From Candidatus Electrothrix communis (GTDB taxonomy: Bacteria > Desulfobacterota > Desulfobulbia > Desulfobulbales > Desulfobulbaceae): a stretch of DNA of 64,000 nt. This document shows positions 34,472 to 48,996 of the stretch, piece by piece. The stretch covers positions 4,665,501 through 4,729,500 of the forward strand of contig CP130629.1 in assembly GCA_030644725.1 (NCBI GenBank), given 5' to 3'. A program made the translations under genes and the position numbers. The notes beneath the pieces were generated by a model, which worked only from the letters and a program-made list of their open reading frames with translations, was not told the origin of the DNA and did not search any database. How positions within the stretch are numbered: position 1 is the first letter of the stretch; each line of letters starts with the position of its first letter.

Positions 34472-36826
34472 ATGGTTGCTAATAGCTCAAAAATTCTCAT
34501 CCTTGGTTCCAACGTCAAAATAACCAACCTTCCGGTTAAAGAGGTGAGTCTGCTGCAAGAAGGCAGTCTTCCTGCTTATGGTTATAATCCCGGCGATAAT
34601 ATTGATCTGCTTGCTGGGCCGGTAAGTGTTGAGAAGGGGAGATTAGAACAATGCCTGACATGGCTGAATTCTTATCTTGCTGAATCCGGTCTCACTCCCC
34701 AGGTTGACTGTCTCACCTATGGACCTGAGAAGCAAGTATATCAAATTTTCAAAAGGCAGAAAATCGGTGGTGAGGATGATCATGACGGCTGGTTTATGGT
34801 GAATCAGTTATTGCCGTCCGAGGAGCGGATGAAAAATTCACCCGCCTTTGTGATCAACGAGCATGAGTGTTCCATTGTCGGCAATAATACCGGGATGGTT
34901 CTGATAGACGACTCCGGTGTGCCTCCGCAGGTCTGCGACGATATGATGGGCCTGAATCCTGATATGTGGTGCATTGCTATGGGGATCTCTGTTGCCCATT
35001 GGCAGCAGTGGGCCCAGCGTCTTGGAAAGCGTTTTACCCTTTTTTGTCGCCTTTCCGATTTGGAAACCACCCGTATGGAAATGGACTCCGCTGTCACTTG
35101 GGAAAGTATTGTTGCCATGTGCCTTCGGGCCCTCAAAACAAGCGAGGTAGGTCTCTGGGATCCGACAACTAAACGTTTTCTCTGTCATATCGTGGTGGAA
35201 ATGTTTCCCCATGCCATTCTTTATGTCGGTCCGGGCGGCACTTTTTTCCGCTACCGTAAAGGTATGTTGCCGAAAAAAAGCTCGTTTAAGAAACGCGGCT
35301 CTGTGCCCTGTTATGACACGATGGTCACTGCAATGTTGACCATAAATATCTTTCGCTTCAATTGCCTTGATTTCTGCCGTAATTGTTTTTTTGCCTTTTC
35401 CAAGCAGGTGCTGGTCAATTGGAAAGTACTTAATGACCACGGATATCATTTTGATGGCCAGCTCAAACTGCCGGAACTGGATTTCGGCTCGGTTTGCCCG
35501 GCTGACTGGCCATGCTCTGTTATCGAATGTGGTGAGGCACGCGGCGGCGGTCGTCTGAAGTCTGCTTGGCAGGACCAGGCTTCCAGCTGCCAGAGTGATT
35601 GCCCCTGCGCCTCTTCCGAGATGATCAGAAAAGATCCAAGTTTTGTCGAATTGCCCCACTCTTCCACAGGATTTGAGAAAAATTTAGCTCTGGTGGCCAG
35701 TCAGTCCTGGGGGGAGGAAAAGAAAAAGGCTTTGCGTTCCTTTTTCCATCGTAAATATGAATCACATTGTAACCTGCAAAACGACGGGGTTCGCTATGCC
35801 GGACATATAGATACCATCATTTCCGTGTTGCATAACCTGAAGGAAGAAGTCAATCGCGGTACCGGGTTTGATCATCTTCCTATGTGTCAAATCGGCCATC
35901 TGCGGACCACAGACCCGGCAGAAATCGATCCGGTCATCACCCTGCATCAGGTCATGGATTCCTATGTCTCCAAGGAAGCGGTCCTGCGTCCTCTCTGTAT
36001 CGGGGTATTTGGTCCGCCGGGTTCAGGGAAATCCTTTGCCGTAAAACAGGTCGCTGATGAGATTGCTCGCCATCATGACGGAAATCCCTTTGATTTTTTT
36101 GAATTTAATCTTACCCAATTTGCCAGTCCTGAAGAAATCAATGCAGCAATCGATCCGATCAGGGCTTCGGTGGCCCAGGGCCGGGTGCCTATTGCTTTCT
36201 GGGATGAATTCGACTGTCGATATAACGGTGATGAATTCGGTTATCTTCGCTTTTTTCTGCCCTCAATGCAGGACGGGGTAACCTATGTTCACGGTATTCC
36301 TTACCATATTGGGCGAGCTATCTTTGTCTTTGCAGGTGGTGTCAAGGCGAGCTGGGAAGGAATGGAGGATTTGCTTTCTTCTGAAAATGGAGAACAGTTA
36401 AAGAAATCCAAAACGCTGAAGATACCTGACTTTATGAGTCGTCTCCGGGTTGTTCTGGATATTGACGGCATTCAGATACCGGGGCACCTTCTCCAGGATT
36501 CCGCCAGCGAGGAGGAACTGGAAGAATTACGCCGGATTCTCCATAAACGCGCCCTGATCATTGCCCATCAGATGCAGACCCATTGGAAAAAAGCAGCTCG
36601 AAAAAGTTCAGGCCTGCTGCTTCGCTTACTCATCGGTGAATATAAATTCGGGGCACGCTCCATTGAGGCGGTCATTGAGGCCAGTCGGGCTGCCGACCGC
36701 CTGGTCTATGGCCTGCCCGAGCTGATCGCGCCTTCTGCGGCCCGTATCCATGCCAATTGGCGGGTGGAGTTGGAACGCAGGATTGATCATGTGCGCAAGT
36801 CAGCAGGGTTGCGAGCTATCTGGTAG
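34472..36826 (+). CDS. Orphan AAA+ ATPase with a large unrecognised N-terminal region
   Basis: 784 residues. The first 480 residues are not recognised; parts (YVGPGGTFFRYRKG, then a conserved-looking CYDTMVTAM) loosely recall a sugar-kinase-like fold, but this is weak. The C-terminal half is an AAA+ domain with Walker A GPPGSGKS (514-521), Walker B IAFWDEFD (D578, E579) and a helical lid. No membrane segments are seen. The ribosome site before the ATG at 34472 is weak. It stands alone between two cytochrome loci. A role in stress or defence signalling is possible but not shown. Confidence 0.65.
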   Translation: MVANSSKILILGSNVKITNLPVKEVSLLQEGSLPAYGYNPGDNIDLLAGPVSVEKGRLEQCLTWLNSYLAESGLTPQVDCLTYGPEKQVYQIFKRQKIGGEDDHDGWFMVNQLLPSEERMKNSPAFVINEHECSIVGNNTGMVLIDDSGVPPQVCDDMMGLNPDMWCIAMGISVAHWQQWAQRLGKRFTLFCRLSDLETTRMEMDSAVTWESIVAMCLRALKTSEVGLWDPTTKRFLCHIVVEMFPHAILYVGPGGTFFRYRKGMLPKKSSFKKRGSVPCYDTMVTAMLTINIFRFNCLDFCRNCFFAFSKQVLVNWKVLNDHGYHFDGQLKLPELDFGSVCPADWPCSVIECGEARGGGRLKSAWQDQASSCQSDCPCASSEMIRKDPSFVELPHSSTGFEKNLALVASQSWGEEKKKALRSFFHRKYESHCNLQNDGVRYAGHIDTIISVLHNLKEEVNRGTGFDHLPMCQIGHLRTTDPAEIDPVITLHQVMDSYVSKEAVLRPLCIGVFGPPGSGKSFAVKQVADEIARHHDGNPFDFFEFNLTQFASPEEINAAIDPIRASVAQGRVPIAFWDEFDCRYNGDEFGYLRFFLPSMQDGVTYVHGIPYHIGRAIFVFAGGVKASWEGMEDLLSSENGEQLKKSKTLKIPDFMSRLRVVLDIDGIQIPGHLLQDSASEEELEELRRILHKRALIIAHQMQTHWKKAARKSSGLLLRLLIGEYKFGARSIEAVIEASRAADRLVYGLPELIAPSAARIHANWRVELERRIDHVRKSAGLRAIW

Positions 36827-37861: not shown

Positions 37862-39847
37862 TTACATCACCGCTGTCAGGTCGGCCTTGGTGGCCAATGG
37901 TCCTTGCAGTCGGATAAGGGGGACAGCTCCTCCAACGAGCATATCGCCATTGCCCATCAAGTTCTCAGCCCCCTTGGTATCAAGAATAACATTACTATTG
38001 GTACTCGTGGTTACTTTGAGGGCGATCTTGAGCTGTAAATTGGCCTTGATTAAGGGAGTCACCACCTTGGCATCTGGGCGCTGGGTGGAGAGAATCACAT
38101 GAAAACCAGCAGCCCGACCCTTCTGGCAAAGGCGCTGGATACACACCTCTGCCTCCTGTTTGTACTCCTTGTCTACCATCAAATCTGCGTACTCATCTAT
38201 CACCACCACTTGATGAGGGATTTCCTTTCCTAGCTGGCAGTACTCCTCAATATCAAATACCTTGGCATCGGCAAAAAGCTGATAACGGCGTTCCATTTCG
38301 GTTACTAACTCTTCCAAGGCCTCCACAGCTGGTTCGATATCATAAATAATCTGTCCATCCAGGTGGGGCAAGTCGTTGAGATCGGTAAAGCTGACCAGTT
38401 TGGGGTCAATCAGGGTAAAGCGAAGCTGCTCAGGACTTGCGTTGCGGGCCATGCCCAAAATAGCGGAGCGCAGAAAGATAGATTTGCCGCTGCCCGCTGT
38501 GCCAGCAACTAATATAGAGGTCATGGTGGCCTTACTCAGGTTGGCCCAGAAGATGGTACCGTCCACGGCCATGCCCACAGGAAAGGTGGCGCTCTCGTTG
38601 GGCTTATTGGCTAGCCCCAGCTCCCATACCTCGCCTAAGGTTAAGGGGGTGGTGTTTTTGCGCGGGATATCAATGGTCATGTGTCCAGCAGCGGTTTGGA
38701 TCAGGGGGGGTACCTTGGTGGACAGCGCTATTTGTAAATCACCTGCCAGTCGTTCGATTTTGGCAACCGTGGTTCCTTTAGCCAGAAGGGGCTTGATTTT
38801 TAAACGAATTAAGCGGGGCCCCAGTACGTATCCCTCCGGTTTCACCGGCAGGCGTATTGCCTTGAAGGTATCTGTGAGGAGCTGGAGCAATTCTTCGGCT
38901 TCCTCAACACCTTCCTTCTCCTTGATAATGGGTATCCCGACAAGCTTGAGATCTGGAGTGGATGTGCGGTCCCCCCAGTCCTGATCACATTGACTGGCAA
39001 AAGAGCAGAGTGAGCAGAGTTGCGGGTTATTGGGCGGGCGCAGGATGCAGTCATTGCTTTGCGTTGCCAGTTGCTTAGTTTCAGCGGCGATCTGGAGAAG
39101 GTGCATGAGGTTGTCGTTCATCCCGGCCAAGGTCTCTGCCGAGTAGGTGGCAACCTTGTCTTCCTCTTCCAGATAAAGGACCATGCCGCTGGCCATGATG
39201 CCGGTGGTTTTTTTGAGCAATAAGGCGTACAATGCCACCTGAATGAGATCTTCGTCAGTATGAGCTGGTTTGAGGCCCTTGAACTCAATGATCACAGCCT
39301 CCTTATGTTGTTGATCAATCAGGAGGCTATCAAATTGTCCGGTCAGCTGGAGGGTATCTGTCGTGGGGAGTGATATGGTGGCCAAGAGTTTTTGCTCTGG
39401 ACGGCAGAAGAGGTCAGCAAGGACAGGGCTGTCTGTATGATCGCGGCATTTACAGAGGAATGCTGACAGATTGGCGTTCCAATAATGCATACCCTCCACC
39501 AGGGCAATAATTTGATCAGCCTTGAGGGTGGCCGCCTTTTTTGCCAGGACAGGATCGAGGATATATTGGTTGATGATCGTAAACAGGCCGTCTGTGATCT
39601 CTTGATCCTGCTGTTGGAGCAGGGCGTGGACAGCTTGATGGACTACATTGCTCGGTCCTTGGCAGATGCTGTCATGGAAGGGTCTGGCAATGAGATTATG
39701 GAAGAGTTTTCCTGGAAAGTTACCACTGCCCTGGAGGCCCACTTTCCAGGCATGGCCCCGCCCCTGGAGTTGATAGGCCAGTAAGCGGGGGCAGCGGTGA
39801 CAGAGATGGACTTCAGTACAGTTCAGTTTGATCATCGGCTGGTTCAT
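37862..39847 (-). CDS. Cas4-like PD-(D/E)XK nuclease fused to an FtsK/SpoIIIE DNA translocase
   Basis: 661 residues. The N-terminal 300 form a RecB/Cas4-type nuclease: His in KLFHNLIA, Asp in TGQFDSLLI, EFK in AVIIEFKG, then QVALYALLL. Cysteines at both ends (CTEVHLCHRC and CSLCSFASQC) fit an iron-sulfur clasp as in Cas4/AddB. After a linker comes an FtsK alpha-like segment (GPRLIRLKIKP), then the motor with Walker A GTAGSGKS (about 450), VVVIDEYADLM, and STQRPDAKVVTPLIKANL and GAENLMGNGDML motifs. There are no membrane helices and no gamma domain. The start is one base after the stop of the upstream ATPase gene, so the two are coupled. It should bind, pump and cut DNA. Confidence 0.8.
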   Translation of the reverse strand: MNQPMIKLNCTEVHLCHRCPRLLAYQLQGRGHAWKVGLQGSGNFPGKLFHNLIARPFHDSICQGPSNVVHQAVHALLQQQDQEITDGLFTIINQYILDPVLAKKAATLKADQIIALVEGMHYWNANLSAFLCKCRDHTDSPVLADLFCRPEQKLLATISLPTTDTLQLTGQFDSLLIDQQHKEAVIIEFKGLKPAHTDEDLIQVALYALLLKKTTGIMASGMVLYLEEEDKVATYSAETLAGMNDNLMHLLQIAAETKQLATQSNDCILRPPNNPQLCSLCSFASQCDQDWGDRTSTPDLKLVGIPIIKEKEGVEEAEELLQLLTDTFKAIRLPVKPEGYVLGPRLIRLKIKPLLAKGTTVAKIERLAGDLQIALSTKVPPLIQTAAGHMTIDIPRKNTTPLTLGEVWELGLANKPNESATFPVGMAVDGTIFWANLSKATMTSILVAGTAGSGKSIFLRSAILGMARNASPEQLRFTLIDPKLVSFTDLNDLPHLDGQIIYDIEPAVEALEELVTEMERRYQLFADAKVFDIEEYCQLGKEIPHQVVVIDEYADLMVDKEYKQEAEVCIQRLCQKGRAAGFHVILSTQRPDAKVVTPLIKANLQLKIALKVTTSTNSNVILDTKGAENLMGNGDMLVGGAVPLIRLQGPLATKADLTAVM

Positions 39848-39848
39848 T

Positions 39849-41975
39849 TCAATTCAATTTGATGATGGTATGGTCTATAGCTCGAATCAGGGTGAACTGT
39901 TCGTGGTAATCTTCCAACAAGAGGAGGAGGTTGGCGGTGCTGATGGGGTGTTTTTCAGAGAGTTTGTCAACCAGGAGATCGGCCTTGAGCATCCGTACTG
40001 GTACCTGCTTTAGAACTTCGCCTGCCACCTTGGCAATCTCTTCAGGGCGAGGAACCCTCACTGGAGGAATGACCGGAGGGGTTGGTTCGGGGAAGGGCGG
40101 ATCAGATCTTTTGAGTGGTACTGGTATTGTCCTGAGGTAGTCATCCAACTGGGCAAAGGCCGGGTAGTCTTTGCCGTTGAGCCAGTCCCGGATAAAGGAA
40201 TGAAACTGGTCTATTGTTATGCTGGTGCCGTCATTGAGGCACACATCGCCAGCCCTTACATCGAACTTGAGAAGGGCTAAGGCGTACCAATGGGCTACGG
40301 CTTCCTTATCAAGGGAAATTTTGGAACCTCCCACATTTTGTAATACTTGTAACTTTTGATTGGTTGAGGGCCATTTAGGTAGTTCTGGAAAGGGGCAACG
40401 CATATCCCGGATGAAGATCACTCGGCTTGTTTTATGTTTGTCCATGAATGCAATGCCATTGCGTAAACTGGCTCCTACGGCCTTATGATGTAGTGCTACA
40501 TCAATGAGAAAAGCTGCCTGGCAAGTGGAAGCTCCTGCGGTGCATAAACTACCTGTCAAGTCAATATATTTAACTTTTTCAGAAGATTCCTCAAGCTGTT
40601 CAATTGAGTAGCCTGCGTCATCAGGACGGTTACTCAGGTAGAGCTGCAAGGCTAAGGTCAGGCGTCCTTCATCTGGTTCGAATTGATCAAAATGAGCTAG
40701 AATTTTTGAGATTTTATTGCTAAATGTTGTGGCTAAAACCTGATGAGGCGGAATGTTTTCAATGTCTTCCACAATAATGGAAAAGAGAAGCTGGTTGGCG
40801 CGGTTAATAACCTGACGGGGCGACTTGACTCGATGGTCAATCACTCTGTTAAGTTCTTTTGCATCCAGAGAAAAGGGATAAAGCGGGTCAGGGCGCTGCA
40901 TGCCGGAGAGAGCCATGTCCAGCCGAGACTCAATAATAGCTCGGGCCTGGTCCTGTGTGCATCCCTTGAGCCAAAACATATTACCTTCAAGCCGGGTGAT
41001 AACAGGATTATCAAGGCTCACCTTGAAATTGTCTGCCCATTCATCTCCGCGAAAAAAGGCTATGGGCATCATGGTTCGGGTTCGATCGCTAAAAAACCAA
41101 AGTAACTGGTTGAATTTTTCCAGCTGCTCCTTAGTTGTCAGGTTTTCTAACTGATCAAAGAAGACAATCAGGGGACGGTCACCATAATGATCCAATATGA
41201 GATCCAGGGAAAGGAGGATCTGGTGCGCTTCATCTTCCAGAGCTTCCGGGGGCTGCTTGGAACGGTAATCCTGTACTTCAAGGACGTTGCAATCCTCCTG
41301 ATCAATAGCCTTACCCATGAGCCAACGGCGGGCAGCACTTCGTTTTTCCTCATAAAAAAAGTATTGCAGGAGTACATGGAGAAATGATGCGTCAAGTTCG
41401 TCATGACTCTCCTTGAGGAATTTTTTTGTGAAGCGAAATACTGCTTCACGGGTCTTGGGCTTCATTTGTAATTTGAGGGCCTGTACCGGATCTTTCTGAC
41501 AGGTTTTGGCGATACTGTCCACTTTCTTATCAGAAGAGCGGCGGGCTGCCTCAATCAGTACATGGGTCAATATTTTTCCGCAGACATACTCAATCTGACT
41601 GTATTCATCTCTTACAAAGGACTTACTGTTCAGGTTGCTGACGATCTCTTTGAGCAGGTAACGAAAACCACGATTGGGATCAATAAAAGGTCGGATATAG
41701 GCAAAGGAGAAAGCTGGCTTGCCTTTAGAACCAGTACGAATCAATCGCCCGATCATGTGGGTTTTGCCGCTGCCGGTTTCGCCGAGGACTGCTGCGGCAC
41801 GCGGGGTTCCTGGATTTTTTTGTTTTTGTTCTATCAGCTGCATAATGGAGCGGGTGACAGCCTGATCCACTCCTTCTACGTCTGGGTATTCATTCTCCCT
41901 TGGATCACCAGCAGCACTGAAGGAGAAGGGGTTGTTTTGCAGGAGTCGTTCCCTAGTAGTTGGATCAACTTGCAT
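39849..41975 (-). CDS. P-loop ATPase of the nuclease-translocase operon
   Basis: 708 residues from the ATG at 41975, chosen because GGAGG lies 5 bases upstream; a GTG six bases earlier overlaps it. Walker A is GETGSGKT (65-72) and Walker B is PLIVFFDQLENL (hhhhDQ). The ATPase core has an RxxD-type sensor region and is followed by about 300 residues, including a Pro-rich linker (PPFPEPTPPVIPPV) and a likely winged helix at the C-terminus. The fold resembles Orc/KAP/STAND-type ATPases, but I cannot name a family. It is the middle gene of three closely spaced minus-strand genes. Confidence 0.7.
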   Translation of the reverse strand: MQVDPTTRERLLQNNPFSFSAAGDPRENEYPDVEGVDQAVTRSIMQLIEQKQKNPGTPRAAAVLGETGSGKTHMIGRLIRTGSKGKPAFSFAYIRPFIDPNRGFRYLLKEIVSNLNSKSFVRDEYSQIEYVCGKILTHVLIEAARRSSDKKVDSIAKTCQKDPVQALKLQMKPKTREAVFRFTKKFLKESHDELDASFLHVLLQYFFYEEKRSAARRWLMGKAIDQEDCNVLEVQDYRSKQPPEALEDEAHQILLSLDLILDHYGDRPLIVFFDQLENLTTKEQLEKFNQLLWFFSDRTRTMMPIAFFRGDEWADNFKVSLDNPVITRLEGNMFWLKGCTQDQARAIIESRLDMALSGMQRPDPLYPFSLDAKELNRVIDHRVKSPRQVINRANQLLFSIIVEDIENIPPHQVLATTFSNKISKILAHFDQFEPDEGRLTLALQLYLSNRPDDAGYSIEQLEESSEKVKYIDLTGSLCTAGASTCQAAFLIDVALHHKAVGASLRNGIAFMDKHKTSRVIFIRDMRCPFPELPKWPSTNQKLQVLQNVGGSKISLDKEAVAHWYALALLKFDVRAGDVCLNDGTSITIDQFHSFIRDWLNGKDYPAFAQLDDYLRTIPVPLKRSDPPFPEPTPPVIPPVRVPRPEEIAKVAGEVLKQVPVRMLKADLLVDKLSEKHPISTANLLLLLEDYHEQFTLIRAIDHTIIKLN

Positions 41976-41977
41976 AA

Positions 41978-42724
41978 TCACCTCCAGGTTACTGTAATAT
42001 ACAGATCGCCGTATTCATCCTGAAAAGAATCCTGTACTTCTTCACGGGTTAATTTGCCAGGGTTTCCCATGTTCAGGGTGAGATACTCGTCGTTGGCCAA
42101 GGTTTTGAGCAGATTGTCAAATTCTTCTCTCGGCAAGCCGAGATGACGGCGGATTTTGAAGATTTTAACGAAATGACTTCCGGGGTCCGCATGATCATAG
42201 GCAGCTTTGAAAGTCTGTACCGGATCACTGCCAGTCTTGCTGGAACTTGTCGTGTCTTCCGTTGCAATTTGCTTGCTTTGTTGCTCATCAAGCTGGAAAT
42301 GCAGTTCAATGGAACGAAGTTCGATCTTTTGCTTCGGTTGTATCTGGAGTATAACCGTTCCCTGGTCAACCAACTTGCTGGCTTCCTTGATTAAATCCAC
42401 CTGTTTCAAAGGAAAAGCTTTCGCTATCTCACCAATGGTTTTCCCTGATTCCTGTGCAATGTACTCCAGCAGGGTGTCTTGCAGGGTTTTGTTTAAAATA
42501 AAACAGGAACGTCCTTTTGTTACTATTCGATATGGAGGTGTAAGAAGGGATTCCAATGCCTTAAGAACAGCTTTCTGTGGGGACTTGCTGTTTATCTTGA
42601 GTTGTTTTTTCTCTTCAGCAGTCAACAGGTCTCGCGCTTTGAGCACTCGAAGGAATCCCTTCTCTGATCGGTGAAAAAGAGATTTTAAGATATCACTGCT
42701 TGTATTGGTTTGTTTTTTTTGCAT
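41978..42724 (-). CDS. Winged-helix-like first gene of the nuclease-translocase operon
   Basis: 248 residues, no signal peptide. Two regions look like winged helix-turn-helix units: about 70-130 (LLEYIAQESGKTIGEIAKAF) and about 185-240 (KIRRHLGLPREEFDNLLKTL). A low-complexity acidic/Ser linker (EDTTSSSKTGSD) lies between. It may be a DNA-binding adaptor for the ATPase, comparable in role to a kleisin-type or MukE-like partner; this is inference. Two bases separate its stop from the next start. AGAGAG precedes the ATG. Confidence 0.65.
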   Translation of the reverse strand: MQKKQTNTSSDILKSLFHRSEKGFLRVLKARDLLTAEEKKQLKINSKSPQKAVLKALESLLTPPYRIVTKGRSCFILNKTLQDTLLEYIAQESGKTIGEIAKAFPLKQVDLIKEASKLVDQGTVILQIQPKQKIELRSIELHFQLDEQQSKQIATEDTTSSSKTGSDPVQTFKAAYDHADPGSHFVKIFKIRRHLGLPREEFDNLLKTLANDEYLTLNMGNPGKLTREEVQDSFQDEYGDLYITVTWR

Positions 42725-43367
42725 ATTGATAGCTCTCTTCTTTAAGGGTTCAAGTCTTGTTGATAAGGGCTCATTTGTTGAGGATGTCGCGAATAGGTAT
42801 TCTCAACGCACGAGACCATAGGCTGTTTTTTGATGGCAGTTTTTTAGAAAGGCATAGTTGAAGCGGATTTTTGTGCGGATCGTAAGCCTGCCTGATTCTG
42901 GAGTGATGGGTTATGTGCTTGTCATGTCAGGCAGGTAAACTTAGATTATACGGTGAAGATTATCAAGTTTTTAATGTATATCATGTCGTTGGTAACGATG
43001 AGAATATTCTTGTGATTAACGAATTTGCTTGCGGCACAAGGAAATATACAGCGCGTTGCTAGCGCAAAGACTTTATGACCCTTACTGACGACGGAATAAT
43101 CCTGCATCCTTGATGGAGCAAAGCTGGGCATACCCTTGCCCAGATCGACATTCAGGAAATCATTACCTTTGGATCGGATGTACTTGTTGTCGAAACTGGC
43201 AGCTCCGGTATGATGCAGCCGGAACAAACCCTATGCAACGAACTGGAAAGAGGGTGTTTTCAACTGACCTGTTGATGAGAGTTGAAAGCGGATGGATGAG
43301 GTGGTAAGTAAGGTGGTGTGTAGCTTACCCGATTTTTTACTGATAATTATTTATTCCAGCATGCAAA
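42725..43367. other. Intergenic region upstream of the nuclease-translocase operon
   Basis: About 640 bases. CCTGCCTGA (42887-42895) pairs with TCAGGCAGG (42927-42935) across a 31-base gap. A 93-codon minus-strand frame (42946-43227) lacks a ribosome site and recognisable motifs, so it may be decayed coding sequence. Promoters for both flanking genes must lie here. Confidence 0.4.
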
Positions 43368-44057
43368 ATGAGTGAAGCACTCCTTAAGGACATAGCGTCG
43401 AAGGTTGTTGAGCAAGACTTACTGGCGAATTGGCGTTTCTACGCAATCTTTCTCCCCTCAATTTTTTTAAGCAGCGCACTTGGTGCATATGTGGCCAATC
43501 GTTACAAGAAAAAAGCGGAGATTGACGCCGTTGATGCCGATTTAAAAAAAATCCTTCGACAACTGGAAAAGACAACTGAAGTTACAGAACAGGTGCGCTC
43601 GAAGGTGGATTATGCTGACTGGGTTGAGCGGGAATGGAAAACGATACGTCGGGTTAAACTGGAAGAGTTGGTTCAGAGTGCTATTTCTGTCAGGCCTTGG
43701 TTCGACCAACAATGTTCAGCTTGTCGGCAATGCTCTCTGAAGAGGGAATCCGAGAATTGCCCGGCAAACCACACCGCGATGATTGCCGCATTGTATTTTC
43801 CTGAGATTCAAAGGGAGAGTGAACAACTTGTTAAAACTGCATATACTGCAATATGTTGGATGCACAGCAAGTTAAATGAAATACTCAATGCAGTTCCATT
43901 ACAAGGTTCTGAAGCGGAGATACAAGTAAAGAGAGGCGAACTTTGGCAACAGCATGGAACGGTTGAGGAGTGGAGTAAGCACTGGCAAGCTCTCTTGGAT
44001 GCTCTGAAAGCACTCGAAGTTAAAGCTGCTCAAGTTATGTGCGATGTGCTTAAATGA
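43368..44057 (+). CDS. Hypothetical protein with one membrane helix and a Cys cluster
   Basis: 229 residues. A single membrane helix near 23-42 (FYAIFLPSIFLSSALGAYVA) is followed by a coiled-coil stretch (IDAVDADLKKILRQLEKTTEV) and a soluble domain with four cysteines in CSACRQCSLKRESENC, a possible metal site. I do not recognise the family. It is divergent from the nuclease-translocase operon and next to a tRNA gene, so it may be accessory. The start at 43368 has no clear ribosome site. Confidence 0.55.
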   Translation: MSEALLKDIASKVVEQDLLANWRFYAIFLPSIFLSSALGAYVANRYKKKAEIDAVDADLKKILRQLEKTTEVTEQVRSKVDYADWVEREWKTIRRVKLEELVQSAISVRPWFDQQCSACRQCSLKRESENCPANHTAMIAALYFPEIQRESEQLVKTAYTAICWMHSKLNEILNAVPLQGSEAEIQVKRGELWQQHGTVEEWSKHWQALLDALKALEVKAAQVMCDVLK

Positions 44058-44160
44058 AACAATGCCCTGCTGATGATCAGGTAGTTTTTTTGAGATAAAA
44101 AAAGCAGGCTACGAGCTGGTAATATGGTGGGAATGAAAAACAAAGTTTGTTGTTTTTCCG

Positions 44161-44237
44161 TGGTGGGCGAGGCGGGATTCGAACCCGCGACCTTCGGCTT
44201 CGGAGGCCGACACTCTATCCAGCTGAGCTACCCGCCC
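44161..44237 (-). tRNA. tRNA-Arg (anticodon CCG)
   Basis: 77 bases including an encoded 3' CCA. On the minus strand it begins GGGCGGGTAGCTCAG, with anticodon loop CTCCGAA (CCG, reading codon CGG) in the stem TCGGC/GCCGA and the T-loop GGTTCGAATCC. The acceptor stem closes with one G-U pair. tRNA genes are common island insertion sites, and the accessory section lies on its left. Confidence 0.97.
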
Positions 44238-44466
44238 GTGTATTTCGGATAAAGAATGCTGTCAAGGTTAAGGATGCATAAGAATCAATGCGCAACCTCT
44301 AGCATTCAAGGATCCAATATAGTATTATTGTTTTGTGTCTGTAAATAAAAAAAGTTATATCGGTTCAGAAAACTGAGCTGCTTCATCTCGTGACTTCCTC
44401 AAGGAGGGCAGGCAGTTTTGTCGTGGTTAGAGGCATGGAACTGTTATTGCTCTTTCAAATCGTCTT

Positions 44467-45189
44467 ATGCATAAAAAAAACTTTATTGAACCGGCAGTAG
44501 TCACTGCCGCACTTCTGCTGATCACCGGTATTTTCTGGCTCACCGATGCTGATCGTTTTATCACCTCTCTTGTACCGCGTGATCATATTATTGCCGCAGC
44601 TCTTCCTGAATGCAATAGAGCATGGCCTGTGGGCAATCTCGCCCCCTGGAATATCCTGTATAATTTTGCACCAATTCCGGCTGTGTTGCTTGCGGTTTCC
44701 GCTTTGCTTGTTTTGTTGATCGGTTTTTTTAAGTCTCACCTCTCCCCTTGGCGTAAGAAAGCGGTTTTTATCCTTCTCCTGCTTGTTCTCGGTCCGGGGC
44801 TGGTGATCAATGTTGCGCTCAAGGGACATCTTGGTCGGCCCCGGCCACGCCAGATTGTTGAATTCGGAGGTACGTATGAATTCACGCAATGCTGGCAGCC
44901 TGGCACCGGGGGCAGTAATAGCTCTTTCCCCTCCGGTCATGCCGCAATAGCTTTTTTTCTTATGGCTCCCTGGTTTGTCTTGCGAGGCAAGAAACAGCGC
45001 TATGCAGAGGCCTTCTTAATGAGCGGGTTGCTTTTCGGAACCTTGGTTGGAATAGCCAGAATTCTCCAAGGAGGTCATTTTCTCAGTGATATCGTATGGG
45101 CTGGTGGGCTGCTGTATCTCTTAGGAAATCTTCTGGGGCTTGCTTTAGGAGTGTATAAAGGCGGACCTGCTGATCATTGCAACGAATGA
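44467..45189 (+). CDS. PAP2-family membrane phosphatase
   Basis: 240 residues with about six membrane helices. The three acid-phosphatase motifs are present: KGHLGRPRP (KxxxxxxRP), FPSGHAA (PSGH) and ARILQGGHFLSD (variant of SRxxxxxHxxxD with Ala for Ser). It would remove phosphate from a lipid such as lipid A or undecaprenyl pyrophosphate (LpxE/LpxF/PgpB-like). The active site faces the periplasm. It is convergent with the flippase-like gene, with 9 bases between them. Confidence 0.85.
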   Translation: MHKKNFIEPAVVTAALLLITGIFWLTDADRFITSLVPRDHIIAAALPECNRAWPVGNLAPWNILYNFAPIPAVLLAVSALLVLLIGFFKSHLSPWRKKAVFILLLLVLGPGLVINVALKGHLGRPRPRQIVEFGGTYEFTQCWQPGTGGSNSSFPSGHAAIAFFLMAPWFVLRGKKQRYAEAFLMSGLLFGTLVGIARILQGGHFLSDIVWAGGLLYLLGNLLGLALGVYKGGPADHCNE

Positions 45190-45198
45190 GTTTTTTAT

Positions 45199-46119
45199 CT
45201 ACGAAGTTTTTTTTCGCCGGAGGAATATGATAAACCCTGGAAGCGAAGCAATAACTGATACAAAACCGTAGAGCAGGGAAAAGGTCAGTACTTGAGATTT
45301 TTCAGCACCGATCAGGAGGAAAAAAGCGACCATTGCGCCTTCGCGTACTCCCCAGCCAGCCAGTGATACCGGGAGCAGGGTCAGTAAAATGACCGGCGGT
45401 ACCATAACGAGATAAACCTGAACGGAAAAGTTGAGCCCCACACCTTGGCCAAGGAGAAAAAAGGTAGCCATCGAGAGCAGGTGGATCAGCACGGAAAGGC
45501 TAAGTTGGCTGGTGAGAGCGGGGAGAGAGGAGTAGACTTGAAAATAACGTTCAGAGAGCCGCCCGAGAAAACCGAGGTACCTACCAACAGTAAAAAAAGA
45601 AAATTTACGCAGGAAAAAAAGGAGAAGTAGGCCGGTTGCCAAGGCCATGAGGATGAGCAACAGGGGATAATAGACCTGTTTTGGTAAGAGGGTAGGGTTC
45701 ATAAGCAGGGCAGCGATGTTAAGCAGCAGGAGCCCAGCTAACCCTATGATGCGATCAATAAATACCCCGAAAAAGGCATCTTCGGCAGAGCCTGTTATTT
45801 TTGCGCAATCATAGATACGCACTCCGTCCCCACCGATACTGGTGGGAAGCCCCTGGTTAAAAAAGGCTCCCTTAAAATAACTGCCGAGGTAAAAGGCAAA
45901 AGGGGCTTTGAAGCCGAGTCGATTGACAATCAACAGCCATCGATATGCGGCAAGAGTGAGACAGGCAAGTTGAGCAAACAGGGCAGACCAGAGATACCCT
46001 GGAGAAATTGCTGTTACGGCCTTAAGTATCTCTTCAGGATGGATACTACGAAAGATGAGAAAGAGCAGTAGGCCAGTGACCGAGAGTCTCAGAGCGTATT
46101 GGAGGGTTGTTTTGGCCAT
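45199..46119 (-). CDS. Flippase-like integral membrane protein (AglD/MprF membrane-domain family)
   Basis: 306 residues with about eight membrane helices. It has the conserved pattern of the lysylphosphatidylglycerol synthase membrane domain family: YFKGAFFNQGLPTSIGGDGVR and, near the end, SLAGWGVREGAMVAFF. Members act on lipid-linked substrates or lipid flipping. It lies 3 bases after lptF on the same strand and probably serves envelope lipid assembly. No soluble synthase domain is attached. Confidence 0.82.
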   Translation of the reverse strand: MAKTTLQYALRLSVTGLLLFLIFRSIHPEEILKAVTAISPGYLWSALFAQLACLTLAAYRWLLIVNRLGFKAPFAFYLGSYFKGAFFNQGLPTSIGGDGVRIYDCAKITGSAEDAFFGVFIDRIIGLAGLLLLNIAALLMNPTLLPKQVYYPLLLILMALATGLLLLFFLRKFSFFTVGRYLGFLGRLSERYFQVYSSLPALTSQLSLSVLIHLLSMATFFLLGQGVGLNFSVQVYLVMVPPVILLTLLPVSLAGWGVREGAMVAFFLLIGAEKSQVLTFSLLYGFVSVIASLPGFIIFLRRKKTS

Positions 46120-46122
46120 CTA

Positions 46123-47574
46123 TCAGGTCTTGTATTTTTCAAGCTGTGTTTCGCAGTACGGGCAGGGTTTAAACCCGGCTTCGTAGGCAACAAAGGTACT
46201 GTTGAATTGAAGCGTACAGTTCTCGCAATGATACTGTTCGCAGCCCGGCAGATGAAAGAGCCGTTCTTGTGCGTCTGCGTGAACAAGCATCCCTTCCCAA
46301 GCTGGTTCTTCTTTTTTCTTCTTGCTGCTGTCGCTTTGCCTTCTGCTTAATAATTTGCTGAATAGATTGAAAAATCGTTTAAGTGGGGTGAGGACGAGAG
46401 CGTCAAGAATGGACTCAAGCCAAATGGTCAGGCGTTCAGAGAAGATCGGTCGCTCCTGTTCAACTCGCCAGAAAATAATCCCGGTCATAATCGCAAAGAT
46501 AATATTGGGTAACCACATGCCTGCAAGGAGAGGCAGGACCATATCTTCCGCCATTACTCTGAATAAAGTAAAAACAACATAATAGAGGACGAAAAATCCC
46601 AGTCCCAGGGGGATGCCGATCGCTTTTCTCCCCGGTCCGGCCTGCAGGCCCAGGGGCAGACCCAGCAGGCTGAGGATCAAACAACCCACTGGTAGGGCTA
46701 AGCGATGATGGTATTCTGTCAGATAAATGGTACCTGCGTGGGTATCAACACCGTGCTTCTGGCCAGCAGCTAGGAGCTGTTCTTGTGACATGCTGCCTCG
46801 ACTCAGCTTGGTGACATCTTCTCCGTCAATGTGGGTGGGTGGTTTTAAGGGGATATTGAGCTGATACCGTTTGAAGCGCACAATCTGGCTATCCTGTCCA
46901 TCAGTATTATGCAGGGTGCCGTTGTTCAACACAATTGAGACGGACATGGTGTTGATATTTGCCTTCATCCGGCCTTTTTTGGCCATTATGATGATCGGCT
47001 GCTCCCGACCGCGCATATCCGAGACATAGACTCCGTTCCAGTGTTCGTTTTCATCAATATCATCGACATAAACGACCAGATCTCCAAGGGCCTCTGTAAA
47101 TTTTTTCTCTTTAATCCCGCTGTCTATTTTCTCCTTAGCCAACTGGAACATAAGTTGGTGCATAGCAATCTCACCGGCCGGAATCAGGCGGACCGAGAAA
47201 TAGCCTGTCAGGGCGGCGATGAATGCCGAGACAATGATAACCGGGGGCAGCATTTGGCGCAGACTGATACCGCAGGCCTTGAGGGCGAGAATTTCCCGTT
47301 CGTTGGTTAAGCGGGTAAAACCGATAATAACCCCGGCCATGCTGGCCATAGGAATAACATAGAGCAGCATGTGGGGGAAAATGTAGGAGAAAAGGCGGAT
47401 GAAGTCGGGGAGATTAATCCCGAGTTCAAGGACGATTTCCAGCAGCGGAATAAGTCGGATCAGAAAAAAGACCCCGTATAGAATAAGAAAGCTGGCAAAG
47501 AACGGAGCAAGCAGTTCAGTAGCCAGATAGCTGTACAGGAGGAATGGAATGCCTTTGCGCTGCATATTTTTCAA
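46123..47574 (-). CDS. lptF: LptF/LptG-family LPS permease with a C-terminal Ada-like metal-binding tail
   Basis: 483 residues, about 110 longer than usual. The N-terminal part is a YjgP/YjgQ permease with six helices and the conserved GVIIGFTRLTNEREILALKA. A periplasmic jellyroll follows, then helices with KAIGIPLGLGFFVLYY. It would take LPS from the membrane in the LptB2FG transporter. The C-terminal tail has RLFHLPGCEQYHCENC and AGFKPCPYC, resembling the zinc-binding part of Ada and related domains, which is unusual on LptF. It lies downstream of an M23 peptidase and upstream of a flippase-like gene. Confidence 0.87.
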   Translation of the reverse strand: MKNMQRKGIPFLLYSYLATELLAPFFASFLILYGVFFLIRLIPLLEIVLELGINLPDFIRLFSYIFPHMLLYVIPMASMAGVIIGFTRLTNEREILALKACGISLRQMLPPVIIVSAFIAALTGYFSVRLIPAGEIAMHQLMFQLAKEKIDSGIKEKKFTEALGDLVVYVDDIDENEHWNGVYVSDMRGREQPIIIMAKKGRMKANINTMSVSIVLNNGTLHNTDGQDSQIVRFKRYQLNIPLKPPTHIDGEDVTKLSRGSMSQEQLLAAGQKHGVDTHAGTIYLTEYHHRLALPVGCLILSLLGLPLGLQAGPGRKAIGIPLGLGFFVLYYVVFTLFRVMAEDMVLPLLAGMWLPNIIFAIMTGIIFWRVEQERPIFSERLTIWLESILDALVLTPLKRFFNLFSKLLSRRQSDSSKKKKEEPAWEGMLVHADAQERLFHLPGCEQYHCENCTLQFNSTFVAYEAGFKPCPYCETQLEKYKT

Positions 47575-47607
47575 TTAAGTGCCTGCTGAAGAGTACAGGT
47601 TAAAGGA

Positions 47608-48996
47608 TTATTGAATAATATTATGAATATTGACGTCAAGCCAATGTTGATCCCACCATTCAATCGGGGTAACAAAGATGCCATGCACCAGCATGGAGAA
47701 ATGGAGATGGTCGCCTCCAGCCATTCCGGTGGTTCCAGAATTACCAATGATCTCTCCCTTTTCAACCAATTGCCCAGACTCAACAGCAATGCGGCTGAGG
47801 TGAGAGTACAGGCTGGTCAGGCCTTGGCCGTGATCAAGCATGACCATATTCCCGTAGATTCCAAGATAGTCGGCAAAAATAACTTTGCCCTTGTTCGCGG
47901 CCTCGACAGTAACACGGGCTGTTGAGGCAATATCCATGCCGAGATGGGTCTGATGATCAATGGGCTCTCCCTGATAATAATAGGTCCGCTGATCGGCAAA
48001 ACCGGCTCTACCGGCTCCCGGCATCCGAAGAAACCGATCCCGCCATAACTGTTCACTTACCGTGTTGCTGCTGAGAGCGGCAATTTTTTCTGCATTGCGA
48101 ATGCGGACAGTATTATTGACAAAGAGGTATTTCTTCAGGTTCGTTCCGGTGAGTTCTGGATAGATTTCTTGAAATTCCGGGATTTTTTTATTGAGAAAGC
48201 CGTCTGAGATGTTAATTCGATCTTTCTTTTCCTTTGCCGGTTTGAATCGGATGGAAAAGGTGCTGCTGCCCTCATTGCCAGACTGATCTACAGCAATAGC
48301 CCTCATTTTTTCCGGCTTATCGCTGTTCCAAGGGAGAGCGATGTAGCTGATAAATCTTTTTTTGCCGCTCGCTAGAGGATATCCTTGAAAAAAGGCATCA
48401 TCAAGTATAATCCCGTGTCGCTCTGAGGGTTCGGAGATACTGTAGACAACAATACCGCTTCCGCCCGGCGTAATATATTGTTGCGCATGTTCAATATGAA
48501 CTCGTGGCGGTCTGGTGTCAATAGTTACGGGAAAGACATGGGTTGTTACATTTCCTTGCAACCCGTTGTTGAGGGAAAAATCATGGACAGAAACCGTAAG
48601 CTTTGCCTCGCCTTCTTTTGCTCCTGCCTGCTGAACATCCAGAGTAAGGGTTTCCTGTATTTCTCCGGCCCCGGCCTTTGAAAGCCAAGCCTGGCGGAGA
48701 AAGCTTTTTTTGAACAGCGAAAATTCTTTTTCATTTTGTTGGAGGACAATAGATACCTGCTGAATACCGCTTTTGCGGTCCGTTGCTTGAAGTTGTACTT
48801 TTAGCGGGCTTCCGAGAAAAAGGAGGTCTTTATCCAGCGTGACTTGTGGCTTTTCTGTCTCAAAAAGGATAAACCCGGCCGCAGCGCCAGCAAGAACGAA
48901 GAGGAGGAAGATGATTATGAGGAAATTGCGTCCCAGCCATTTTTTGTTTGTTGAACGGGAGGAGGTACCTATTCTGCGTCTATTCTTCGAGATCAT
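47608..48996 (-). CDS. Membrane-anchored M23 peptidase with N-terminal beta domains
   Basis: 462 residues. A basic N-terminus is followed by one membrane helix (about 26-46), roughly 250 residues of beta-rich periplasmic domain (Ig-like, e.g. VTIDTRPPRVHIEH), and a C-terminal M23 domain with HLGMD (HxxxD) and GGDHLHF (HxH). It should cleave peptidoglycan or act as a regulator in the periplasm. The lptF gene follows after 33 bases and rng precedes by 45, suggesting one operon. Confidence 0.87.
   Translation of the reverse strand: MISKNRRRIGTSSRSTNKKWLGRNFLIIIFLLFVLAGAAAGFILFETEKPQVTLDKDLLFLGSPLKVQLQATDRKSGIQQVSIVLQQNEKEFSLFKKSFLRQAWLSKAGAGEIQETLTLDVQQAGAKEGEAKLTVSVHDFSLNNGLQGNVTTHVFPVTIDTRPPRVHIEHAQQYITPGGSGIVVYSISEPSERHGIILDDAFFQGYPLASGKKRFISYIALPWNSDKPEKMRAIAVDQSGNEGSSTFSIRFKPAKEKKDRINISDGFLNKKIPEFQEIYPELTGTNLKKYLFVNNTVRIRNAEKIAALSSNTVSEQLWRDRFLRMPGAGRAGFADQRTYYYQGEPIDHQTHLGMDIASTARVTVEAANKGKVIFADYLGIYGNMVMLDHGQGLTSLYSHLSRIAVESGQLVEKGEIIGNSGTTGMAGGDHLHFSMLVHGIFVTPIEWWDQHWLDVNIHNIIQ

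Follow-up and report, generated by a model that had tools for sequence, protein, structure and literature searches.

Three adjacent genes of Candidatus Electrothrix communis, here termed A, B, and C, probably encode an Orc/Cdc6-FtsK "capture" machine that targets DNA, most likely that of invaders, a reading to which we assign a probability of roughly 0.6. The genes form a minus-strand operon running from 42724 to 37862, by open reading frame (ORF) calling, within a 64,000-nucleotide stretch of contig CP130629.1 (assembly GCA_030644725.1); the whole stretch is referred to as the window. An earlier description of this DNA (the original prediction) had pointed to a compact three-gene set at this place, and that was confirmed: the ORFs are there and the set recurs in distant genomes. 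It had spaced all three genes 1-2 bases apart; the tight arrangement stands, with a 1-base gap from B to C, but A and B overlap by 4 bases. The trio is more than a chance succession of ORFs: two congeners have kept it, the ratio of nonsynonymous to synonymous substitution (dN/dS) being 0.05-0.23 for each gene or part of a gene, and it is found again in distant genomes. Features of the locus are collected in Table 1.

Table 1. Features of the A-B-C locus and the adjacent tRNA gene, in window coordinates.
Feature	Position	Strand	Remarks
Gene A	41978-42724	-	248 aa; ORF; proposed DNA/target-recognition subunit
A, first winged helix	42494-42700	-	Fastest-evolving part of A
A, third winged helix	41984-42223	-	Best-conserved part of A
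Gene B	39849-41981	-	710 aa; GTG start; ORF; Orc/Cdc6-like AAA+ ATPase
B, AAA+ core	40773-41876	-	Residues 36-403; Walker A and D276 conserved
B, alpha/beta domain	40251-40748	-	Residues 412-577; order of elements like a restriction endonuclease (REase), catalytic residues not conserved
B, C-terminal winged helix	39855-40046	-	Residues 646-709; proposed docking domain for C
Gene C	37862-39847	-	661 aa; ORF; Cas4-type PD-(D/E)XK nuclease fused to soluble FtsK motor
C, nuclease	38972-39835	-	H50, D173, E188-x-K190, Q203, Y207 and Cys 19, 278, 281, 287
C, FtsK-alpha domain	38663-38920	-	PF17854
C, FtsK RecA-like motor	37874-38599	-	Protein ends here; C-terminal gamma domain absent
tRNA-Arg (CCG)	44161-44237	-	Congener similarity ends at its 3' side; trio on accessory side

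Domain Composition of the Three Proteins

Family searches of B in Pfam, NCBIfam, and PADLOC returned weak KAP/AAA_16 matches, and its fold was judged from a structural model (predicted local distance difference test score, pLDDT, 82; predicted template modeling score, pTM, 0.75). The best match of the model in the PDB was Cdc6p (1fnn_A; Z 16.6 by VIA, 3.6 Å over 245 residues), which Foldseek also ranked first, and the top structural rows were mostly Cdc6 and ORC chains. Further matches included the loader-like AAA+ protein TnsC (Z 14.1) and the defense ATPase RdrA (Z 13.8), and the Foldseek list contains a BrxC chain. In the model of whole B, the helices and strands of the alpha/beta domain follow the order of a REase core; its candidate acidic and Lys positions are unconserved in 73 B sequences. 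A low-confidence linker leads from this domain to the C-terminal winged helix. By its model, B is an Orc/Cdc6-type AAA+ ATPase. The weak family matches and the model together bear out the second large P-loop ATPase of the original prediction, whereas the parallels it drew to HerA-NurA, Wadjet, and BREX-like systems turn out to be loose, B being Orc/Cdc6-like by structure and not HerA or SMC-type. A lone, distant B paralog without A or C occurs elsewhere in the window's own genome (G000:C1:2028892-2031132; L020 7892-10132), and similar lone copies of other genomes cluster with it in the B tree. Distant B-like ATPases were also seen on cyanobacterial plasmids (L024 7533-9932 and L025 7515-9947); the former gene is annotated as an exonuclease (RNase T/DNA polymerase III type) and has a GmrSD-type gene after it, and the latter is followed by TIR and macro-domain genes.

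Protein A gave no meaningful family match in Pfam, NCBIfam, or PADLOC. Its AlphaFold2 model (mean pLDDT 78) shows three winged helices, at residues 9-77, 81-138, and 168-247, rather than the two expected earlier. Structure searches with A returned assorted winged-helix proteins among the matches listed; DndG, SspB, and FokI were not among them. The winged helices differ in rate: compared with the congener G1139, dN/dS was 0.46, 0.21, and 0.05 from the first to the third (0.23 for whole A).

In C, Pfam detected PDDEXK_1 (4e-12, residues 71-288) and Cas_Cas4 (2e-6, 176-287), followed by FtsK_alpha (PF17854; 1e-5, 310-395) and FtsK_SpoIIIE (PF01580; 1e-40, 417-591). All ten nuclease residues given in Table 1, including the four Cys, are present in 46/46 members of the main C family. 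In a distant group (n = 8), H, D, (D/E)xK, Q, and Y are retained, and the Cys set is not. C is accordingly predicted from its conserved catalytic residues to be an active REase. The RecB/Cas4-type nuclease joined to FtsK, with its H, D, EFK, Q, and Cys ligands, was thus read correctly from the start, and the motor probably lacks membrane helices, as had also been proposed, a crude pattern finding no long hydrophobic stretch after residue 270. Cas4/AddB-type nucleases have the H, D, E-x-K, Q, Y, and four Cys in common with C; unlike them, C is fused to a DNA motor, and no CRISPR-like direct-repeat array lies between 20000 and 44400 of the window.

The nearest solved sequence to C is FtsK, and among 10 further C proteins scanned all matched FtsK and 9 matched FtsK_alpha (two weakly). 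Three architectures occur among relatives: nuclease with FtsK_alpha and FtsK, nuclease with a HerA/TrwB-like motor (L019, L023), and nuclease without a motor. In a tree of motors, 15 cellular FtsKs fell on one side of a branch and 22 C motors, including that of L159, on the other, as a single capture would give. C itself was rejected as a housekeeping FtsK: it begins with the nuclease in place of N-terminal membrane helices, it ends with the motor and so has no C-terminal gamma domain, and the window's genome has a separate FtsK with hydrophobic N-terminal stretches.

The C-Terminal Tail of B Tracks Gene C

The presence of the C-terminal winged helix of B (the tail) was compared with that of gene C across B loci. 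Among 94 decidable rows (the contig-edge rows L104 and L113 being left out), hand-checked coding gave 57 with both, 34 with neither, 2 with the tail only, and 1 with C only; the uncorrected count was 52, 33, 6, and 3, respectively. Because hand re-scoring had touched discordant rows only (six of nine), a uniform profile procedure was added, which gave 55, 36, 2, and 1 for the same 94 rows. Over all 96 rows that procedure counts 38 with neither, the two edge rows included, and it misses L021 and L159. The rows re-scored for the tail were L012 and L161, in which it lies in another frame or a split ORF, and L026_13010, in which the supposed tail is a low-complexity repeat; those re-scored for C were L021, L121, and L159, in which C lies where a contig ends, beneath an antisense ORF, or next to masked bases. 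The rows that remain discordant are L107 and L026_2027 (tail, without a C of their own) and L167 (C, without a tail).

Phylogenetically independent pairs were taken on a B tree built without the tail, and the comparison was run under all three codings. Where the two members of a pair differed in C, the tail differed in the same way in, on average, 8.8 of 9 (hand-checked), 9.7 of 10 (profile), and 7.6 of 11 (uncorrected) pairs, and never in the opposite way (median P = 0.004, 0.002, and 0.008, respectively). In the reverse comparison, among pairs differing in the tail, C differed likewise in 8.7 of 11 under the hand-checked coding and in 9.8 of 12 under the profile coding, again never oppositely. 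Tail and C are thus lost together, and this co-loss suggests that the C-terminal winged helix of B is a docking piece for C.

Relationship to Known Systems

"HerA/FtsK capture" systems have been delineated by comparative genomics, with an anti-invader role predicted (Rakesh, Aravind, and Krishnan, NAR 2024; PMC10853773). In the sections of that paper drawn on here, the Orc/CDC6 class has an Orc/CDC6 ATPase in which an inactive REase always lies between the AAA+ core and a C-terminal winged helix-turn-helix (wHTH); an active REase, for which two families are named, one of them shared with AbiJ; and a HerA/FtsK motor, one set of which carries an FtsK-alpha domain taken from cellular FtsK. In a subset there is also a protein of 2-4 wHTH domains, a relative of DndG, SspB, or FokI. 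Several of these points are matched in the trio: B ranks Cdc6p first in Foldseek and, in its model, holds a domain that separates the AAA+ core from the C-terminal wHTH; C has the conserved residues from which an active REase is predicted, and its motor, like those of its relatives, carries PF17854 with PF01580; and the model of A contains three winged helices. The class as described there also includes a set without FtsK-alpha, which the HerA/TrwB-like versions at L019 and L023 resemble. By model and sequence, then, the trio fits the predicted Orc/CDC6-HerA/FtsK capture class, so that the combination is not the novelty it had been taken for, the 2024 paper having already predicted an anti-invader class with this layout. 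Figures and supplements aside, three aspects described here were not found in the capture-class literature drawn on: the coupling of the B tail to C, the operons with a caspase, and the motor-less form with FtsK as a neighbor. The words "Cas4" and "caspase" are absent from the main text of PMC10853773, and its sections 22 and 26 do not describe a motor-less version beside cellular ftsK.

Several better-known systems are similar in layout. SspFGH, the phosphorothioate-linked restriction system of Vibrio, likewise has three genes, for a Walker-A protein, a middle protein, and a protein that ends in an FtsK-like domain, according to the portion of PMC8092258 used. In PADLOC, C was matched best by an SspH model, whose final 290 positions align with the FtsK part of C (1e-66), with a second SspH model at 4e-44; that first model has 1,766 positions, however, against the 661 aa of C. 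Membership was rejected, as C matches the C-terminal end of SspH models only and A and B match no Ssp model; no sspBCD was recognized by eye in the window. DndFGH/DptFGH also places a wHTH protein, a P-loop protein, and a nuclease with a HerA/FtsK motor in one operon, but PMC10853773 describes DndF as a derived P-loop kinase, in contrast to the Orc/Cdc6-like B, and DndG as a triple-wHTH protein of 450-500 aa, in contrast to the 248 aa of A. No Dnd family appeared among NCBIfam and PADLOC matches up to E = 1, and this system was set aside. BrxC of BREX, as described in the part of PMC12839542 used here, resembles B in its Orc/Cdc6 AAA+ domain with a following wHTH and alpha/beta domain, and the same source describes a BREX-related capture version in which HerA/FtsK is present, as in the trio; BrxC is, however, given there as 1200-1300 aa, against 710 aa for B, and neither PglZ nor BrxB was recognized by eye at this locus. 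HerA-NurA was likewise rejected: no NurA match was listed, and HerA models matched C at 0.013 (NCBIfam) and 4e-6 (PADLOC), compared with 1e-40 for FtsK.

Distribution of the Trio

Relatives of B were counted with the query genome included, and all figures are lower bounds. They occurred in at least 8 of 297 genomes of a phylum draw (1e-5), 42 of 340 in the class of a Desulfobacterales genome, 39 of 120 Synergistota, and 2 of 294 in the phylum of a Methanospirillum genome (each at 1e-15), as well as in 3 of 146 genomes of the window's own order (1e-8), one of these being a distant lone B. The complete A-B-C set recurs in Desulfobacterales, Synergistota, and a methanogen. Neighborhoods of 96 B rows were annotated with profiles of A, B, and C, and a same-strand A within two genes upstream together with a C within two genes downstream was found in 51 of them (34/39 in Synergistota, 17/57 in others); L021 and L159, added by tblastn, bring the total to 53/96 loci, distant genomes among them, so that the trio proves to be a recurring one. 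L095 and L127 duplicate the places of L016 and L026 and were left out, as were L099 and L111, in which the ORF picker found no complete B ORF, fragments below 450 aa (L023 and part of L161), and some weak B places, for example in G312, G490, G457, and G617. One Desulfobacterales contig (L026 2027-16465) carries three A-B modules in series, one with C, one with a caspase gene, and one with neither; an AAA_15-type gene and a small gene sit between two of the three.

Genomic Setting and Selection in the Genus

Within the genus, the trio lies in accessory sequence beside a tRNA gene, as had been noted before. In six of the seven other genus genomes, similarity to window positions 43300-48500 begins at 44147-44161, i.e., on the 3' side of tRNA-Arg; in the seventh (G1189) the contig begins inside this stretch. 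Genes beyond the 3' side are mostly different in the six congeners fetched, with G1187 and G1190 sharing genes further out. A close B occurs in three of the eight genus genomes (the window's, G1139, and G1188), each with a complete trio; three others have only a distant B, and two, the less complete ones, have none. The trio occupies a different place in each of its three genomes. In G1139, 18 bases separate C from the end of a gene block, which in the window is found inverted and 11-15 kb away; in G1188 the trio precedes a gene named pyrG by eye, among genes read as ordinary housekeeping.

Substitution rates were calculated by the simple Nei-Gojobori method, the values being near saturation. 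In comparison with G1139, dN/dS was 0.09 for C, 0.05 and 0.14 for two parts of B, and 0.23 for A; in comparison with G1188, the values for the trio were 0.08, 0.11, and 0.21. The trio is thus under purifying selection in this genus. Silent divergence of the trio was 0.52-0.97 against G1139, where five other genes gave 1.2-1.5, and 1.0-1.7 against G1188, where the one other gene compared gave 2.2. Together with its changing place, this lower silent divergence hints at lateral movement of the trio, although the values are near saturation.

Proposed Function and Alternatives

In the mechanism that we propose, A would recognize either some feature of the DNA to be targeted or a partner bound to that DNA, the fast-evolving first winged helix providing the specificity. 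A and ATP-bound B, which may ring or mark the duplex, would then load C at the target, with the C-terminal winged helix of B as the docking piece. The FtsK motor of C would pump double-stranded DNA past the Cas4/AddB-type nuclease, probably an iron-sulfur enzyme, which would cut or degrade it. The likeliest targets would be invading DNA such as plasmids, conjugating elements, or phages. Restriction of foreign DNA, which the original prediction had named next to its processing, is the most plausible role; a function for the host itself, in handling DNA at division, keeps some weight because in many Synergistota the module lies in a conserved stretch with cell-division genes. If the proposal is right, a bacterial relative of origin-recognition ATPases loads a pump-nuclease in place of a replicative helicase, and the predicted capture systems gain a compact and testable three-gene model in which the loading contact, between the B tail and C, is named.

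A number of results weigh against a role in defense. No phage or plasmid test of the system was found in the literature. A PADLOC scan (1e-10) of 115 neighbor proteins from loci with A outside Synergistota gave nine caspases and no other family with more than two members, figures that come from the top 25 of 103 families by member number; apart from the caspases, these neighbors are not clearly defense genes, and the argument from defense islands is therefore weak. No relative was found in phage records or among 600 candidate stretches of viral contigs, and plasmid records gave matches in only five, partial and distant, so that a phage-borne or plasmid-borne system was rejected. Lastly, many Synergistota carry the module at a conserved chromosomal place with cell-division genes. 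In one branch, then, the module has the appearance of a fixed chromosomal trait, and a purely defensive reading is weaker there.

This Synergistota form differs in its nuclease and its surroundings. The nuclease gene has no detected motor in 31 of the 39 B loci (L131, L142, L145, and L161 run off the contig). A divergent gene named rsmH stands beside the module in 19 loci, in 18 of which ftsL- and ftsI-like genes then follow, and a membrane-anchored cellular FtsK is the fifth or sixth gene after B, on B's strand, in 15. On this side of the module, away from rsmH, pilus-like genes and a gene read as mltG lie between it and ftsK; RsmH, FtsL, FtsI, and MltG were named by eye, and PilM, PilN, and a prepilin motif were taken from Pfam. 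The rest of the Synergistota loci have different surroundings or lie on short contigs. A close PilM-N relative (E < 1e-60) occurs in 26 genomes, all 26 of which have B. In many Synergistota (e.g., L030 11997-13394) the nuclease reads on into a pilin-like or membrane protein, a candidate fusion; in others the nuclease and the pilin-like gene are separate, with a PilM-PilN-like gene next.

Under one competing explanation, A, B, and the nuclease would act with the septal FtsK on trapped, broken, or dimeric DNA of the host chromosome, the fused C of the window then performing the same activity with a motor of its own. Nuclease and motor that are fused in some lineages and neighbors in others make up a Rosetta-stone pattern, and the purifying selection on the trio would also suit a host function. 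However, relatives of B are patchily distributed (see the counts above for Synergistota, the Desulfobacterales class, and the window's order), the window's genome keeps its separate FtsK, and the trio's place differs between congeners. The proximity of FtsK may, moreover, reflect no more than a shared neighborhood, given the pilus and mltG-like genes in between. We consider host chromosome handling unlikely, though the strongest of the competing explanations.

A second explanation, less likely again, is that A and B form a suicide switch: on sensing infection or damage to DNA, it would set off an exchangeable effector, be it the nuclease, turned against the cell's own DNA as well, or in relatives a caspase. 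Nine A-B operons have a caspase-PG_binding gene in the position of C: it comes next on the same strand, after 3-248 bases, and its His and Cys motifs are conserved (Pfam was run on two). Eight of the nine B proteins belong to one supported clade of 12 rows in the B tree. A patatin-like phospholipase gene precedes A-B at L017 (10246-12527), where it lies 2 bases before A, and at L018 (1-1840), where it is split into two ORFs before A; B at both loci lacks the C-terminal winged helix. A chain of the plant NLR resistosome was, in addition, among the structural matches of B (Z 12.4). Against this, the caspase also lives apart from A-B: in a survey in which 15 of 27 matches were examined, 13 full-length caspases of this type were found in the 340 genomes, and eight follow B, the other five having no B within ~1500 bases; two of the five are in genomes (G303 and G501) with A-B elsewhere. 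The presence of a motor on C is more in keeping with processive attack on DNA than with simple suicide, and the B proteins of the caspase clade have no docking tail, so that their mode may differ.

The capture-type machine proposed above may itself be one form of something broader, and we offer this tentatively, as less likely than not. A-B could be a general switch of the Orc/Cdc6 type whose effector is a self-propelled nuclease, a caspase, or, in Synergistota, a motor-less nuclease borrowing the septal FtsK; the tail of B would be the effector socket, lost with the nuclease. If the proposed reading of the trio is right, the forms with a caspase or with FtsK as a neighbor would link origin-recognition-type ATPases both with cell death in bacteria and with the handling of DNA at division.

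FtsK/HerA motors and TnsC-like ATPases serve mobile elements, and the trio changes place between congeners and lies in an accessory stretch that ends at a tRNA gene; nevertheless, a transfer or replication apparatus of such an element is very improbable as an alternative to defense, since no integrase or relaxase was recognized by eye among the window's ORFs, phage records and viral contigs hold no relatives and the plasmid matches are as limited as described, and in G1188 the trio sits among apparent housekeeping genes. Direct repeats between 20000 and 44400, considered as candidate attachment sites, form six families, none of which touches the tRNA. Near the trio, on the plus strand, the window also encodes a lone 784-aa protein (34472-36826) that has an AAA+ domain and belongs to no clear family.

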